A DNA stretch of 64,000 nt, taken from positions 62,001 to 126,000 of the forward strand of contig NZ_BKZV01000003.1 in the NCBI RefSeq assembly GCF_008974285.1. Reading direction: 5' to 3'. The DNA comes from Thermogemmatispora aurantia. GTDB taxonomy: Bacteria > Chloroflexota > Ktedonobacteria > Ktedonobacterales > Ktedonobacteraceae. A program made the position numbers and the translations under genes. Every line of letters begins with the position of its first letter. The first letter of the stretch is position 1. The notes below the pieces were generated by a model. That model was not told the DNA's origin and did not search any database. It saw nothing but the letters and a program-made list of their open reading frames with translations. This document shows positions 9,206 to 62,269 of this stretch, in pieces.

Positions 9206-9426
9206 CAACTGCACTCCTTTCCAGCATTCCCAGCTAGCTTGCGGTATCTGCCAGAGCTTGTAGCCCCTGCTGAACAGAGAACTACTAGTATAATTATACC
9301 TCGTTTTGCAAGATCAAAAAGTGAAAAACATCAATCTGATAATTTATATCTCCAAGCCAGATATTACACAAGTACCTTTTAGAAAGCAAAGGCCAGTGGG
9401 CGCTCGTGGAGGGAGGAGTCAGGAGC

Positions 9427-10152
9427 TTAGCGACTGGTACCGCTAAGCTCCTGGGAGGCCTCATGTGTAGGGCTGCCACGCTGGGACTCCACGCCGGAGG
9501 TATGCTGCGCGGTGGGGGGAGCAGGCTCCTGCTCGCGCGAGGGAGAAACTCGGGCCCCGCTGAGCACCAGCACCTCGCAAGGAGCATGCTTGAGGACATA
9601 CTCGACGGCGGGATCGATCTGCTGCAGACTACCGCGCACGCGCACGGGGCAGTTTGCCACAATAATCAGATCAGCAGCGCTTTGCGTCGCCTCGTAAACG
9701 ATGGCCGGGCCGGCCTGCCGGGCCTTCAGTACCCGCACCGTTAGCGTTGAAGGCGTCTGGCTCTGGCGCGCCACCGAGCGTGCACGCTCTATCAGGGCCT
9801 GGACACGTTTCTCCTCCTCGCCCAGCGTTGCGTCCAGGGGCAGCATGAAGGGCACCTCAATCACGGCCAGCGCCCAGACGCTCCCATTGCGGTGGCGGGC
9901 CATTTGGAGTGCCAGGGCCAGTGCGCGGTCGGTCTCCTCGCTACAGTGCAGCAGCGGCACCAGAATCCGAGTCATTTTATTGAGTGAGCGGACGGCCCGG
10001 CTGGTAGTGCGGCTCAGCTCGGTCTCTGGAGGCAGATGGAGCATCCAACCGAGGACCCCGATAATCGCAGCGGCAAACAGCAGTGCGATCACCACACCGA
10101 TAGGAGTAATCAAGAGTGGATTGGTGGGGGTGGCCACCAGCATCGCCAGCAT
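9427..10152 (-). CDS. Universal stress protein domain with N-terminal membrane segment
   Basis: A 241-residue protein. Residues 1-40 hold one transmembrane helix (TPIGVVIALLFAAAIIGVLGWM). Residues about 60-200 form a UspA-like domain starting MTRILVPLLHCSEETDRALALA and ending with a nucleotide-fold segment DLIIVANCPVRVRG ... APCEVLVL. The C-terminal 40 residues are Pro/Glu/Ser-rich. The start codon overlaps the stop of the upstream small membrane gene (TAATG), and that gene overlaps the APC permease, so the three form one coupled operon. Universal stress domains attached to or next to cationic amino-acid permeases are thought to regulate transport; here the domain is a separate membrane-anchored protein. 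Nucleotide binding cannot be judged with certainty. Confidence 0.82.
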   Translation of the reverse strand: MLAMLVATPTNPLLITPIGVVIALLFAAAIIGVLGWMLHLPPETELSRTTSRAVRSLNKMTRILVPLLHCSEETDRALALALQMARHRNGSVWALAVIEVPFMLPLDATLGEEEKRVQALIERARSVARQSQTPSTLTVRVLKARQAGPAIVYEATQSAADLIIVANCPVRVRGSLQQIDPAVEYVLKHAPCEVLVLSGARVSPSREQEPAPPTAQHTSGVESQRGSPTHEASQELSGTSR

Positions 10153-26884: not shown

Positions 26885-27859
26885 TCAAGGCCAGTTGCTC
26901 AGGGCTTGGGCGTAGAGTGCCGGGTCCACGTTGCCGCCACTCACGATACAGCAGACACGCTGACCGCGGAAGCGCTCCGGGTGCAACAACAAGGCTCCCA
27001 ATGCCAGCGCGCCTGTCGGCTCAACCTTCAGGTTGGCTACCAGGAAGAGGCGGCGCAGCGCTTCCAGCGTTACCTCATCTGGGACCTCGATGATCTCCTC
27101 CACTCCCTGGCGGATAATCTCCCAGTTGAGTCGTCCCAACGAGAGCGTGCGTGCTCCGTCGGCAACCGTCTCCGGCTCCATCTCATTGGAGAGCAGTTGT
27201 CCGCTGCGCAGCGAGCGAGCGGCATCGTTGCCAGGCAGCGGCTCCGCCCCAATGATGCGTGTCGGACATCCAAGAAGGTCACGAGCAATGATCTGACCTG
27301 AGATCAGTCCACCTCCCCCAACCGGTACCAGCAGCACATCGACCTCGGCCTGGCGCAGGATTTCCTGCCCGAGGGTCGAATTGCCAGCTACCACGCGATA
27401 GTCGTCGTAAGCTGGAGCAATGAAAGCCTCGGGCTGTTCGCGGGCCAGCTGGGCTACGCGCTCCTGACGGCTGACGCGGCGTACATCGGTCAGCTCGACT
27501 CTCCCTCCATAGGACTGGACAGCTTCGATCTTCACGCGGGCCGCCGTCGAGGGCATGACGATCGTTGCCTCTTTCCCGAGCAAGCGCGCAGCATAGGCCA
27601 CCGCTTGCCCAAAGTTCCCAGAGGAGGCGGCGATAATCTGCCGCTGGGGAACGCTGGCCAGCAGATGGTAGGCGGCGCGGAATTTAAAGCTGCCCGTGTA
27701 TTGAAAGGTCTCACTGGCGAGTAGCAGCTGACAGCCCAGGGCTTCGGAGAGACGGGGAACGGGTAGCAGCAGCGTAGGGCGCAGGTAGCGTGGCAGCTTC
27801 TGCCACACCTCTTCAACGTAGGCTGACGTCAACTCGGGAGCCAGATCATAGCTGTGCAT
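26885..27859 (-). CDS. Threonine/serine dehydratase family enzyme (PLP fold type II)
   Basis: 324 residues, the length of single-domain catabolic threonine dehydratases and serine racemases, without the C-terminal ACT regulatory domain of IlvA. GSFKFRAA near residue 57 has the PLP-binding Lys, ASSGNFGQAVAYAA near 84 binds the cofactor phosphate, and VPVGGGGLISG near 175 is the glycine loop. It converts L-threonine or L-serine to the 2-oxo acid and ammonia, or racemises serine; the sequence alone does not decide. The ATG at 27859 has only a weak AAGAAG upstream. A leader region with a terminator-bearing structured RNA lies 66-170 bases upstream on the same strand and could control it. Confidence 0.87.
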   Translation of the reverse strand: MHSYDLAPELTSAYVEEVWQKLPRYLRPTLLLPVPRLSEALGCQLLLASETFQYTGSFKFRAAYHLLASVPQRQIIAASSGNFGQAVAYAARLLGKEATIVMPSTAARVKIEAVQSYGGRVELTDVRRVSRQERVAQLAREQPEAFIAPAYDDYRVVAGNSTLGQEILRQAEVDVLLVPVGGGGLISGQIIARDLLGCPTRIIGAEPLPGNDAARSLRSGQLLSNEMEPETVADGARTLSLGRLNWEIIRQGVEEIIEVPDEVTLEALRRLFLVANLKVEPTGALALGALLLHPERFRGQRVCCIVSGGNVDPALYAQALSNWP

Positions 27860-27924
27860 AGCGCATGTAAACTTCTTTTCTGGGTAAGTGGCAGGTCGTC
27901 AAGATTGGCCACGATTGGCACTGA

Positions 27925-28022
27925 CCAAAAAGAAAAGACCAGAGGAGCGCCGCCCTAATGGCCTTCCTTCCCTGCCAAGGCGGCAGGATGGGATCGCAGC
28001 AAAGTATCTCTACGGCGCTCCT
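27925..28022 (-). ncRNA. Candidate ~95-nt structured RNA (sRNA or terminated leader)
   Basis: A perfect 16-bp inverted repeat (GACCAGAGGAGCGCCG at 28028-28013 on the minus strand, its complement at 27952-27937) encloses 60 bases that include the small hairpin CTGCC-GCCTT-GGCAG. The 3' arm runs directly into TTTTCTTTTT. A promoter ends at 28029, so a transcript would start near 28022 inside the first arm and end near 27927, its two ends pairing with each other. No protein frame is present. It could be an independent small RNA, or a prematurely ended leader of the dehydratase gene whose ATG is at 27859. It lacks the SRP RNA core motif. Confidence 0.5.
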
Positions 28023-28028
28023 CTGGTC

Positions 28029-28058
28029 ATTGTACCATTGCGGACAGATGGAAGACAA
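28029..28058 (-). promoter_or_regulatory. Promoter driving the structured RNA
   Basis: TTGTCT (28058-28053), an 18-base spacer and TACAAT (28034-28029) on the minus strand, immediately before the inverted repeat. Confidence 0.55.
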
Positions 28059-28120
28059 GATACCTCTGCCGTAGCTACTCAGACAGCCTGGCCTCCTTCT
28101 CGCTCGGGCTAAGGGATCAG

Positions 28121-28147
28121 AGCCAGAGCCGCACTGCGGCTCTGGCT
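28121..28147. terminator. Perfect 13-bp hairpin downstream of the NCS2 permease gene
   Basis: AGCCAGAGCCGCA, one base, then its exact complement. It is 135 bases after the permease stop on the minus strand. No T-run follows; it may end or protect the permease mRNA. Confidence 0.45.
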
Positions 28148-28282
28148 GTTGAGCTGCGTCTGACCTGGCAGTGGTGCACACTCTTCCACTCTCCCTGGTT
28201 CTCTTTCCTCCAACCAGGGTAAGGCCAGGAGACTGCGAGACTGCTCTGAGCCGAAGCACAGCGAGCGAGCGGGCGGGCAAAG

Positions 28283-29689
28283 CTATGGGCGTTGCTCTGG
28301 CGGCTCTGGCTCCAGCGAGCGCTCGCCTGCCGGATTCAGTCCCACTGCCGCATCGGCTGTCACCGTCTCCTCTGGCTCCGGCGCTGGCTCACGCAGGATC
28401 TGGTAGAGGATAATCGACCCGAAAGTAGCCACACCGATGGCACTCAGCTGGAAGCTACCGATATTGAGCGCCAGATTCCCGGCCCCGACGATCAGGGCAA
28501 AGGCCACGGTGATCAGATTGCGGCTCTTTGAAAAATCCACGCGGTTCTCAACCCAGATGCGTCCACCAGTAGCCGCGATCAGGCCGAAGAGCACGATCGC
28601 CAGGCCCCCGATCACCCCGGAGGGGATGGTCATGATCAAAGCGCCGAACTTCGGACAGAAGCCCAACAAAATGGCGACAACCGCAGCAATGATGAAGATA
28701 GCGGTAGAGTAGATACGAGTGACTGCCATAACACCAATATTCTCGGCGTAGGTTGTCACTCCGGTACCTCCCCCAAAACCAGCGACAATCGTAGCCAGGG
28801 CGTCACCCAGGAAAGCGCGGCCCAGATAGCGATCCAGATTGCGCCCTGTCATGGCCGCCACGGCCTTCACATGACCAGTGTTCTCGGCCACCAGGATGAC
28901 TGCCACCGGGGCGATCAGCGCTATGGCGCTGGGTGAAAAGGTTGGCGTTGAGAAGTGGGGGAGGCCAATCCAGCTGGCCTTCTCCAGTCCTGAGAAGTCG
29001 ATTGGCTTGCCCAGGTGCAGGCCATTAGCAAACAGCAGGTAGATCAGATAACCGATGATACCGCCGAGCAGAATAGGTAAGCGGCGCAAGGGACTGGGAA
29101 GAAAAACGGCCACGAAAGCGACCGCCAGCACGGTAATGAGGCCCATCCAGGTATCGAAGGCTGAGCCACTCACATCGCTTACGGCCACCGGGGCCAGATT
29201 CAGTCCGATGACAGCAACGACGGCGCCGGTCACAACCGGGGGCATCAAAATATCGATCCAGCGGTAGCCAGCAGCAATCACGATCAAGGCAATGATACCG
29301 TAGACTACCCCTGCGGCGATGATACCGCCCAGAGCTACCCCGATGTTAGGATTGAGGCCCGGGCCGTGGAAGCCGCTGGCGAAGCCAGTGGCAGCCAGCA
29401 CCACTGCGATAAAGGAGAAGCTAGAGCCAAGATAGCTCGGTACTCGCCCGCCCACGACTAGAAAGAAGAGCAGCGTTCCGATGCCTGAGAAGAAGATGGC
29501 CGTGTTCGGATCGAAGCCCATCAAAATTGGTGCCAGTACGGTCGAGCCGAACATAGCCAGCACATGCTGCAGCCCTACCAGAATGGACTGTCCCCAGGGA
29601 AGGCGCTCATCGGGCGCAATGATCCCTTCGGTCTTGAGCGTCCAACTACTGAAATAGCCGCGTTTCTCCGCGGTGTCTCCTGTTGCCAT
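28283..29689 (-). CDS. NCS2 nucleobase:cation symporter, uracil permease type
   Basis: 468 residues from the ATG at 29689, which has GGAGGG 8 bases upstream; the in-frame ATG at 29707 lies on that ribosome site. The fold has 14 membrane segments. Diagnostic are the helix 1 region LVGLQHVLAMFGSTVLAP, the helix 8 segment VAENTGHVKAV with the substrate-binding Glu, and the helix 10 segment GFGGGTGVTTYAENIGVMAVTRIYS, which matches UraA/PyrP/RutG (GxGxTTYGENIGVMAxT) rather than xanthine or urate carriers. It should import uracil or a related pyrimidine with protons. The C-terminal 40 residues are Glu/Pro-rich. Its 240-base leader contains an intrinsic-terminator hairpin with no gene upstream, which indicates attenuation control. 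Confidence 0.88.
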   Translation of the reverse strand: MATGDTAEKRGYFSSWTLKTEGIIAPDERLPWGQSILVGLQHVLAMFGSTVLAPILMGFDPNTAIFFSGIGTLLFFLVVGGRVPSYLGSSFSFIAVVLAATGFASGFHGPGLNPNIGVALGGIIAAGVVYGIIALIVIAAGYRWIDILMPPVVTGAVVAVIGLNLAPVAVSDVSGSAFDTWMGLITVLAVAFVAVFLPSPLRRLPILLGGIIGYLIYLLFANGLHLGKPIDFSGLEKASWIGLPHFSTPTFSPSAIALIAPVAVILVAENTGHVKAVAAMTGRNLDRYLGRAFLGDALATIVAGFGGGTGVTTYAENIGVMAVTRIYSTAIFIIAAVVAILLGFCPKFGALIMTIPSGVIGGLAIVLFGLIAATGGRIWVENRVDFSKSRNLITVAFALIVGAGNLALNIGSFQLSAIGVATFGSIILYQILREPAPEPEETVTADAAVGLNPAGERSLEPEPPEQRP

Positions 29690-29743
29690 GTGGAAAACCC
29701 TCCTCATAGAAACAGTTGGCCAAAGGTGGATGCCAGACTCGAT

Positions 29744-61752: not shown

Positions 61753-62269
61753 CCAGGGACGAGCGCCGGCGAACGAAAGAGCGGCTCCCTCCTGGAGTTT
61801 GGAGGAGCCGCGTAAGGAATGAGAAGGAAGGGACTACTGTCGCGAGCTGCTGGTGGTGGAGAGCAAGGAGCAGCTCGCGGCAGCCAGTCCCTTCGTCCCT
61901 GGGTACGGGCCTGGACGCTGCCTTCGACTTGGCTCTACTCAGCCAGAGGTGCCGCGCTGGCGCAGTGCCAGGCCGGCGCATCATCCTGTCAGCTCAGTTG
62001 CAGGCCCTCCCTTTCGGTATGTGCGCTGGTACACTGACCCTGACTAACCGTGGGGCACAGGCTCGTCGGCCCAGGGTCAGTCAATCCAGTCGGCTGCAGC
62101 GGAACCGGACTCGCCGACTCGTGAATACACTCCTGACAGCCTCGCGTAGGGGTGGATTAGCTGTCTGGCCAATCAGGCTGATAGCGAGACCCAGAGAGCC
62201 AGCGTTTCTCCTGGCGATATTGCAGGGGAGACAAGCTCAGGAGAACCGCGGGAGGGGAGGGAGAGCGCA
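61753..62269. other. Intergenic stretch with terminator hairpin
   Basis: A bulged stem (GCGGCTCCCTCC at 61781-61792 with GGAGGAGCCGC at 61801-61811) lies 29 bases after the membrane-protein gene and may end its transcript. The remaining 450 bases show no gene; several frames overlap without ribosome sites. Confidence 0.45.

Follow-up and report, generated by a model that had tools for sequence, protein, structure and literature searches.

A conserved structured RNA, seen only in Thermogemmatispora in the genomes searched, as a probable cis-regulatory leader of a dehydratase gene

A compact segment between a nucleobase permease gene and a dehydratase gene of Thermogemmatispora aurantia carries a promoter, a long stem and a U-tract in close succession, raising the question of whether it specifies a small RNA of its own or the leader of the gene that follows. 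The window analyzed here is a stretch of 64,000 nt from this species (GCF_008974285.1, contig NZ_BKZV01000003.1, forward-strand positions 62,001 to 126,000), and all coordinates below count from its first base. Judged by its sequence, the element, which is restricted to one genus in the genomes searched, is best read as a cis-regulatory leader of the dehydratase. We give a probability of roughly 55% to the reading in which it acts in cis as the 5′ leader of the dehydratase mRNA, in Thermogemmatispora only among those genomes, and is most likely an attenuator with two mutually exclusive folds. In general terms, a foldable RNA of about 95 bases in these heat-loving soil bacteria probably decides how often the dehydratase gene is read.

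The preliminary description of the locus listed a sigma-70-like promoter (TTGTCT, 18 nt, TACAAT), a 16-bp inverted repeat around 60 bases, an inner hairpin and a terminal U-tract. All four are present; they had been given plus-strand coordinates, and every one of them reads on the minus strand. The features are as follows, where G000 is the genome of the window and G001 to G005 are the other five members of the genus compared.

28283 to 29707, minus strand: NCS2/RutG-like nucleobase permease gene, upstream of the element
28029 to 28058, minus strand: promoter, with a -35-like TTGTCT at 28058-28053, an 18-nt spacer ending in TGG and the -10 hexamer TACAAT at 28034-28029
28022, minus strand: A, the seventh base past the -10, expected (inferred) transcription start
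28013 to 28028, minus strand: 5′ arm of the long stem P1, with its outer 6 nt (28028-28023) located before the expected start
27991 to 28021, minus strand: alternative 5′ hairpin (anti-P1), GGA.CGC.GUAGAG with CUUUGC.GCG.UCC, which takes up the 5′ arm and excludes P1
27965 to 27993, minus strand: inner hairpin, UCC CA UCCUGCC - GCCUU - GGCAGGG AA GGA, with 98.3% of cells paired
27937 to 27952, minus strand: 3′ arm of P1, pairing with the 5′ arm at 16 of 16 positions, with 60 nt between the arms
27927 to 27936, minus strand: U-tract TTTTCTTTTT, directly abutting the outer stem; found in G000, G001 and G002, shorter in G005, none in G003 and G004
26885 to 27859, minus strand: PLP-dependent serine/threonine dehydratase-like gene, 324 aa; with the first base of the element numbered 1, its start codon begins at 170

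Several of these features stand out in the window as a whole. The P1 arms form its longest perfect inverted repeat (loops up to 120); the runner-up, at 9420-9453, has 13 bp and a loop of 8. The U-tract is the sole minus-strand 10-mer with at least nine T, and TGRTACAAT occurs a single time on the minus strand, at the element, where a TG precedes the -10. A promoter scan over 2 kb returned two promoter-like sites, where shuffled sequence would give 0.3. The usual spacing from the -10 to the start is 7 nt, and the alignment column of A28022 is A in all six genus members and opens a run of seven invariant columns. The TACAAT hexamer is likewise kept in all six, and the -35-like hexamer is still recognizable. 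A hairpin-plus-U scan called no terminator at the element, since it allowed loops of 3-8 only. Between the permease and the element, a perfect GC-rich palindrome (GCCAGAGCCGCAGTGCGGCTCTGGC, 28122-28146) is found in G000 to G002 and not in G003 to G005, and is not followed by a U-tract.

The element is a conserved minus-strand RNA under selection, as judged from sequence comparison and folding. The 93-nt minus-strand RNA folds at -56.3 kcal/mol (z = -6.2), and none of 200 shuffles did as well. When the 32-pair consensus was laid over the six sequences, 27 cells were G-U and only 5 were A-C, the latter being what G-U pairs of a plus-strand RNA would look like; the structured RNA is therefore assigned to the minus strand. 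A plus-strand element was rejected on this bias; its fold z of 0.36 against shuffles comes from a stretch (27950-28058) that cuts off one arm and is no fair test. Consensus pairing holds in 95.8% of cells, a level that 30 of 500 shuffles of the six sequences also reach. Covariation in P1 is weak: three pairs are altered on both sides, with a shuffled mean of 1.7, and 58 of 500 shuffles reach three among these six close sequences.

Element identity among the six genomes ranges from 78 to 98%, and the element is kept far better than synonymous sites, as the most distant pairs show. G000 and G005 share 79.3% of the element and 86 of 171 four-fold degenerate sites of the dehydratase (50%), while G000 and G003 share 94.6% and 123 of 184 (67%), respectively. 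In the six-genome alignment, 66 of 98 element columns are invariant, compared with 32 of 219 on the upstream side and 14 of 76 on the downstream side. Arms and interior are conserved to about the same degree, and the loop is more conserved than the flanks. Single-base length changes in the loop disfavor a conserved peptide, and in G004 and G005 1-nt changes break, by eye, the TTG-started short frame inside the element. A leader peptide was therefore ruled against.

The distribution of the element is narrow. Of the 41 genomes searched with the 271-bp region (that of the window and 40 relatives), six carry the element, in a single copy each, and these six belong to one genus; the single copy was confirmed in all six Thermogemmatispora genomes, which include T. 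tikiterensis T81, T. carboxidivorans PM5 and the isolates HOG45 and HOG59. The preliminary description had also proposed a covariance search across the class; with a model built from the six elements, this search matched 6 of 47 genomes at E up to 0.01, all Thermogemmatispora. Within the family, a clear match was obtained in 6 of 29 genomes, with some match in 21 of 29 at a loose E of 10. Across the phylum, 6 of 400 Chloroflexota genomes matched at E up to 0.001 and the element was not found in the other 394 at that threshold; with their stricter filters, these larger searches may miss weak relatives. The weak matches within the family, at E up to 10 in 15 genomes outside the genus, were sampled at five loci (L019-L023), none of which resembles the element along its full length. 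One of these genomes (G015) holds 17 weak model matches, which may represent a long-palindrome family; its inspected locus, L019, is unlike the element in sequence.

A search of genome contigs with the core pattern gave 20 records, four of them Thermogemmatispora with the whole element; around the remaining 16 the sequence is, by eye, unlike it. Viral contigs gave no match to the core pattern. A 14-base CGTAGAGACACTTT from the element loop of G003 and G004 also occurs once in G043 (L022/L083, G043:C1:5249455-5249468), beside a strong hairpin, and once in G020; it is isolated, belongs to no repeat family and is probably shared by chance. Known RNA classes did not account for the element either. 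No Rfam family reached its gathering score in the window, and the best sub-threshold matches were microRNA models that score the stem only. The bacterial small SRP RNA (RF00169) has its one match in this genome elsewhere (G000:C2:281116-281215, 61 bits), the Ro/TROVE protein (PF05731) expected of a bacterial Y RNA has no match in G000, and ARAGORN predicts no tRNA or tmRNA gene in 27500-28500.

The gene neighborhood is what ties this RNA to the dehydratase. The order permease, element, dehydratase on one strand is kept in all six members of the genus. The chains closest to the dehydratase product, a PLP enzyme, are those of threonine deaminase and serine racemase, and none of the 25 NCBIfam families listed reaches its cut-off for it; the matching gene in G005 (L038) contains one internal TGA. 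For comparison outside the genus, 18 loci with a close dehydratase ortholog in other genera of the family (L039-L056) were collected, of which L056 was dropped because it lies at a contig end and has no upstream DNA, and a second piece in G008 (C308) was left out. The exact TGRTACAAT lies 33-49 nt 5′ of the first aligned codon in 9 of the 17 remaining orthologs; four further ones have another TGNTANNNT within 110 nt, and the other four have none. The permease-dehydratase order recurs at a single outgroup locus (L041), which carries TGGTACAATG 48 nt before the gene and no element. With filters off, the covariance model produced 41 matches at the 17 loci (best E 0.0002, mostly short hairpins downstream of the gene), none of which falls between the promoter motif and the start codon when positions are compared by hand.

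Since outgroup orthologs often carry the motif directly before the dehydratase, the TACAAT promoter appears to be the dehydratase's own; of the genomes compared, only those of Thermogemmatispora have the element between the two. The preliminary description had left the choice between a small RNA and a leader in which transcription stops before the dehydratase. A leader is favored over a free-standing RNA because the dehydratase always lies downstream (6/6) and the same promoter motif precedes it in other genera.

The strongest competitor, which we consider unlikely though with a real share of the probability, is a free-standing small RNA of about 90-100 nt that has a promoter and a terminator of its own, acts on a protein or in trans, and lies before the dehydratase incidentally. 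The promoter directly before the stem, the U-tract in four of six species, the loop that outdoes its flanks in conservation and the one copy per genome would all suit such a molecule. On this reading a second promoter would be required for the dehydratase within the roughly 75 nt past the stem, where a TTGAC is kept in five species but no -10 stands at a fixed distance, by eye, and a second promoter there was rejected. The element's invariant position in all six genomes and the promoter motif shared with other genera also count against a free-standing RNA. This same interval contains, at 27872-27903 on the minus strand, a conserved CTTGAC(G/A)A(C/T)C and a purine-rich AGAAAAGAAG between stem and start codon. 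The dehydratase of the window has no clear GGAG ribosome-binding site of the kind common in outgroup orthologs. Pairing of the leader with the ribosome-binding region was considered and rejected, as no pairing is conserved and the folds vary by species.

The two ends of the proposed RNA further weaken a self-contained molecule with its own terminator, because two of six species have no U-tract and the start is expected inside the stem. A strong stem followed by a U run is found in G000, G001, G002 and G005; G003 and G004 keep the stem, and their tails, with 3 and 5 U in 10 bases, are no U-tract. Intrinsic termination is thus not common to the genus, unless it was lost in these two. The expected start, A28022, falls within the 5′ arm, 6 nt from its outer end. 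An RNA made from there to the end of the U-tract would measure about 96 nt; its ends would be paired less fully than had been proposed, since it could not form the outermost six pairs, and its stem would be shorter and set off from the U-tract. Either the start is unusually near the -10, or RNA from farther upstream folds here too.

Under the preferred reading, that of a dehydratase leader with two exclusive folds, transcription would begin from the TACAAT promoter at about A28022. The nascent RNA is predicted to form first the 5′ hairpin, by pairing of the 5′ arm with the invariant CUUUGCUGCGAUCC; the emerging 3′ arm would then displace this hairpin and close P1 around the inner hairpin. P1 with the U-rich RNA behind it, a tail present in only four of six species, would cut read-through into the dehydratase. 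Read-through could be allowed by some signal that keeps the first hairpin in place, for example a ligand, a protein, temperature or the speed of the polymerase.

This order of events was modeled by folding transcripts of growing length from the expected start. Anti-P1 is the first nascent structure predicted in all six species, and P1 takes over when little of the 3′ arm is still missing; in G005 a different fold intervenes, and G000 keeps the order at 60 °C too. Strain T81 was grown at 60 °C (PMC6776052). The anti-P1 pairs form in 97.2% of 72 cells with no covariation, and they hardly vary, so covariation lends the two-fold model no support. The energy of anti-P1 is only moderately better than chance: 20-46 of 1000 shuffles match it in five species, and 260 of 1000 do in G005. 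Furthermore, the full leader from the expected start is predicted to fold otherwise, without P1, in G001, in G003 (at 37 °C) and in G005. The model would explain the invariance of CUUUGCUGCGAUCC, because its partner arm must also pair elsewhere.

Another possibility, slightly behind the small RNA in our estimate, is that the structure is a terminator or insulator against permease read-through that overlaps the dehydratase promoter by chance, or else a plain stabilizing stem at the 5′ end of the mRNA. This reading draws on the outer stem, presumably absent from the promoter's own transcript. The outer hexamer fits the 3′ side of its own species with a summed duplex energy of -33.1, compared with -12.9 for shuffled hexamers, and none of 2000 shuffles did as well; these are related sequences, so the count is not a probability. 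G000 and G005 each have the lowest value of their row in the own match, which in G001 and G002 ties with a cross-match; the own match of G003 falls slightly short of a cross-match, and that of G004 clearly short of several, which speaks against the idea. The U-tract is flush with the outer stem in all four species that have one, but G003 and G004 keep the stem without it, and the conserved 60-nt interior would be left unexplained.

A more speculative idea, to which we give somewhat less weight still, is a switch that depends on the start site, the dehydratase promoter abutting the 5′ arm of a terminator. RNA reading through from the permease would contain the whole arm, close the stem right up to the U-tract and stop; RNA started at the promoter would be without the outer 6 nt, make a shorter stem at a distance from the U-tract and could pass, and the invariant interior would be a ligand or protein sensor of a class outside Rfam. 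Such a switch would account for the species-specific fit to the 3′ side of bases presumably left out of the promoter's own transcripts, and it rests on the option that RNA from farther upstream also folds here. If true, it would give a promoter a simple means of silencing the read-through of its upstream neighbor and not itself.

Finally, a DNA-level feature, with two inverted operator half-sites for a regulator 60 bp apart, could draw on the perfect 16-bp repeat that abuts the -10, and is very improbable given that arm changes keep pairing through G-U on one strand (the 27 to 5 bias of the whole structure), that the outer sequence changes while complementarity mostly stays, and that the interior is about as conserved as the arms.

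The element is a strongly conserved RNA with no Rfam match in a class for which no small-RNA or riboswitch study was among the open-licence papers listed. Among open-licence papers, none was found on a small RNA in Thermogemmatispora, no on-topic title on a Ktedonobacter riboswitch or small RNA was among the matches listed, and none combined riboswitch, threonine dehydratase and leader. If the element is a sensor, it would be a candidate riboswitch or attenuator for serine/threonine breakdown. Moreover, the gain of the leader can be followed, because the element-free arrangement survives in sister genera.

Known systems offer partial parallels. T-box and leader-peptide attenuators precede amino-acid genes and work with alternative hairpins, and the element would likewise be a leader with alternative hairpins before an amino-acid enzyme gene. 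The T-box leader has an AGGGUGG-type core; a T-box was rejected here, as no Rfam match reached the gathering score and the similar AUUAGGGCGG is not kept in G005. Unlike leader-peptide attenuators, the element has no conserved leader peptide, given the 1-nt length changes in its loop. Bacterial small RNAs with intrinsic terminators consist of a promoter, a structured RNA and a U-tract; the element shares this plan, with about 95 nt of structured RNA, and differs from it in being fixed before one gene and in having a U-tract in some of the species only.

Among the mechanisms compared, the nearest published one is the HMP-PP riboswitch (thiS motif), an aptamer embedded in a terminator stem (PMC6478431). 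The thiS model is built on 400 representatives; the motif is reported from two phyla, its U run has six or more bases and its ligand is proven (PMC6478431). In contrast, the element is found in one genus, with a U-tract in four of six members, a 60-nt interior and no Rfam match, and it stands beside a PLP-dependent dehydratase where the thiS motif accompanies thiamin genes. The two would have in common that the interior of a terminator-like stem is unusually conserved, that an alternative fold can open this stem close to the U run, and that a metabolic gene is associated.
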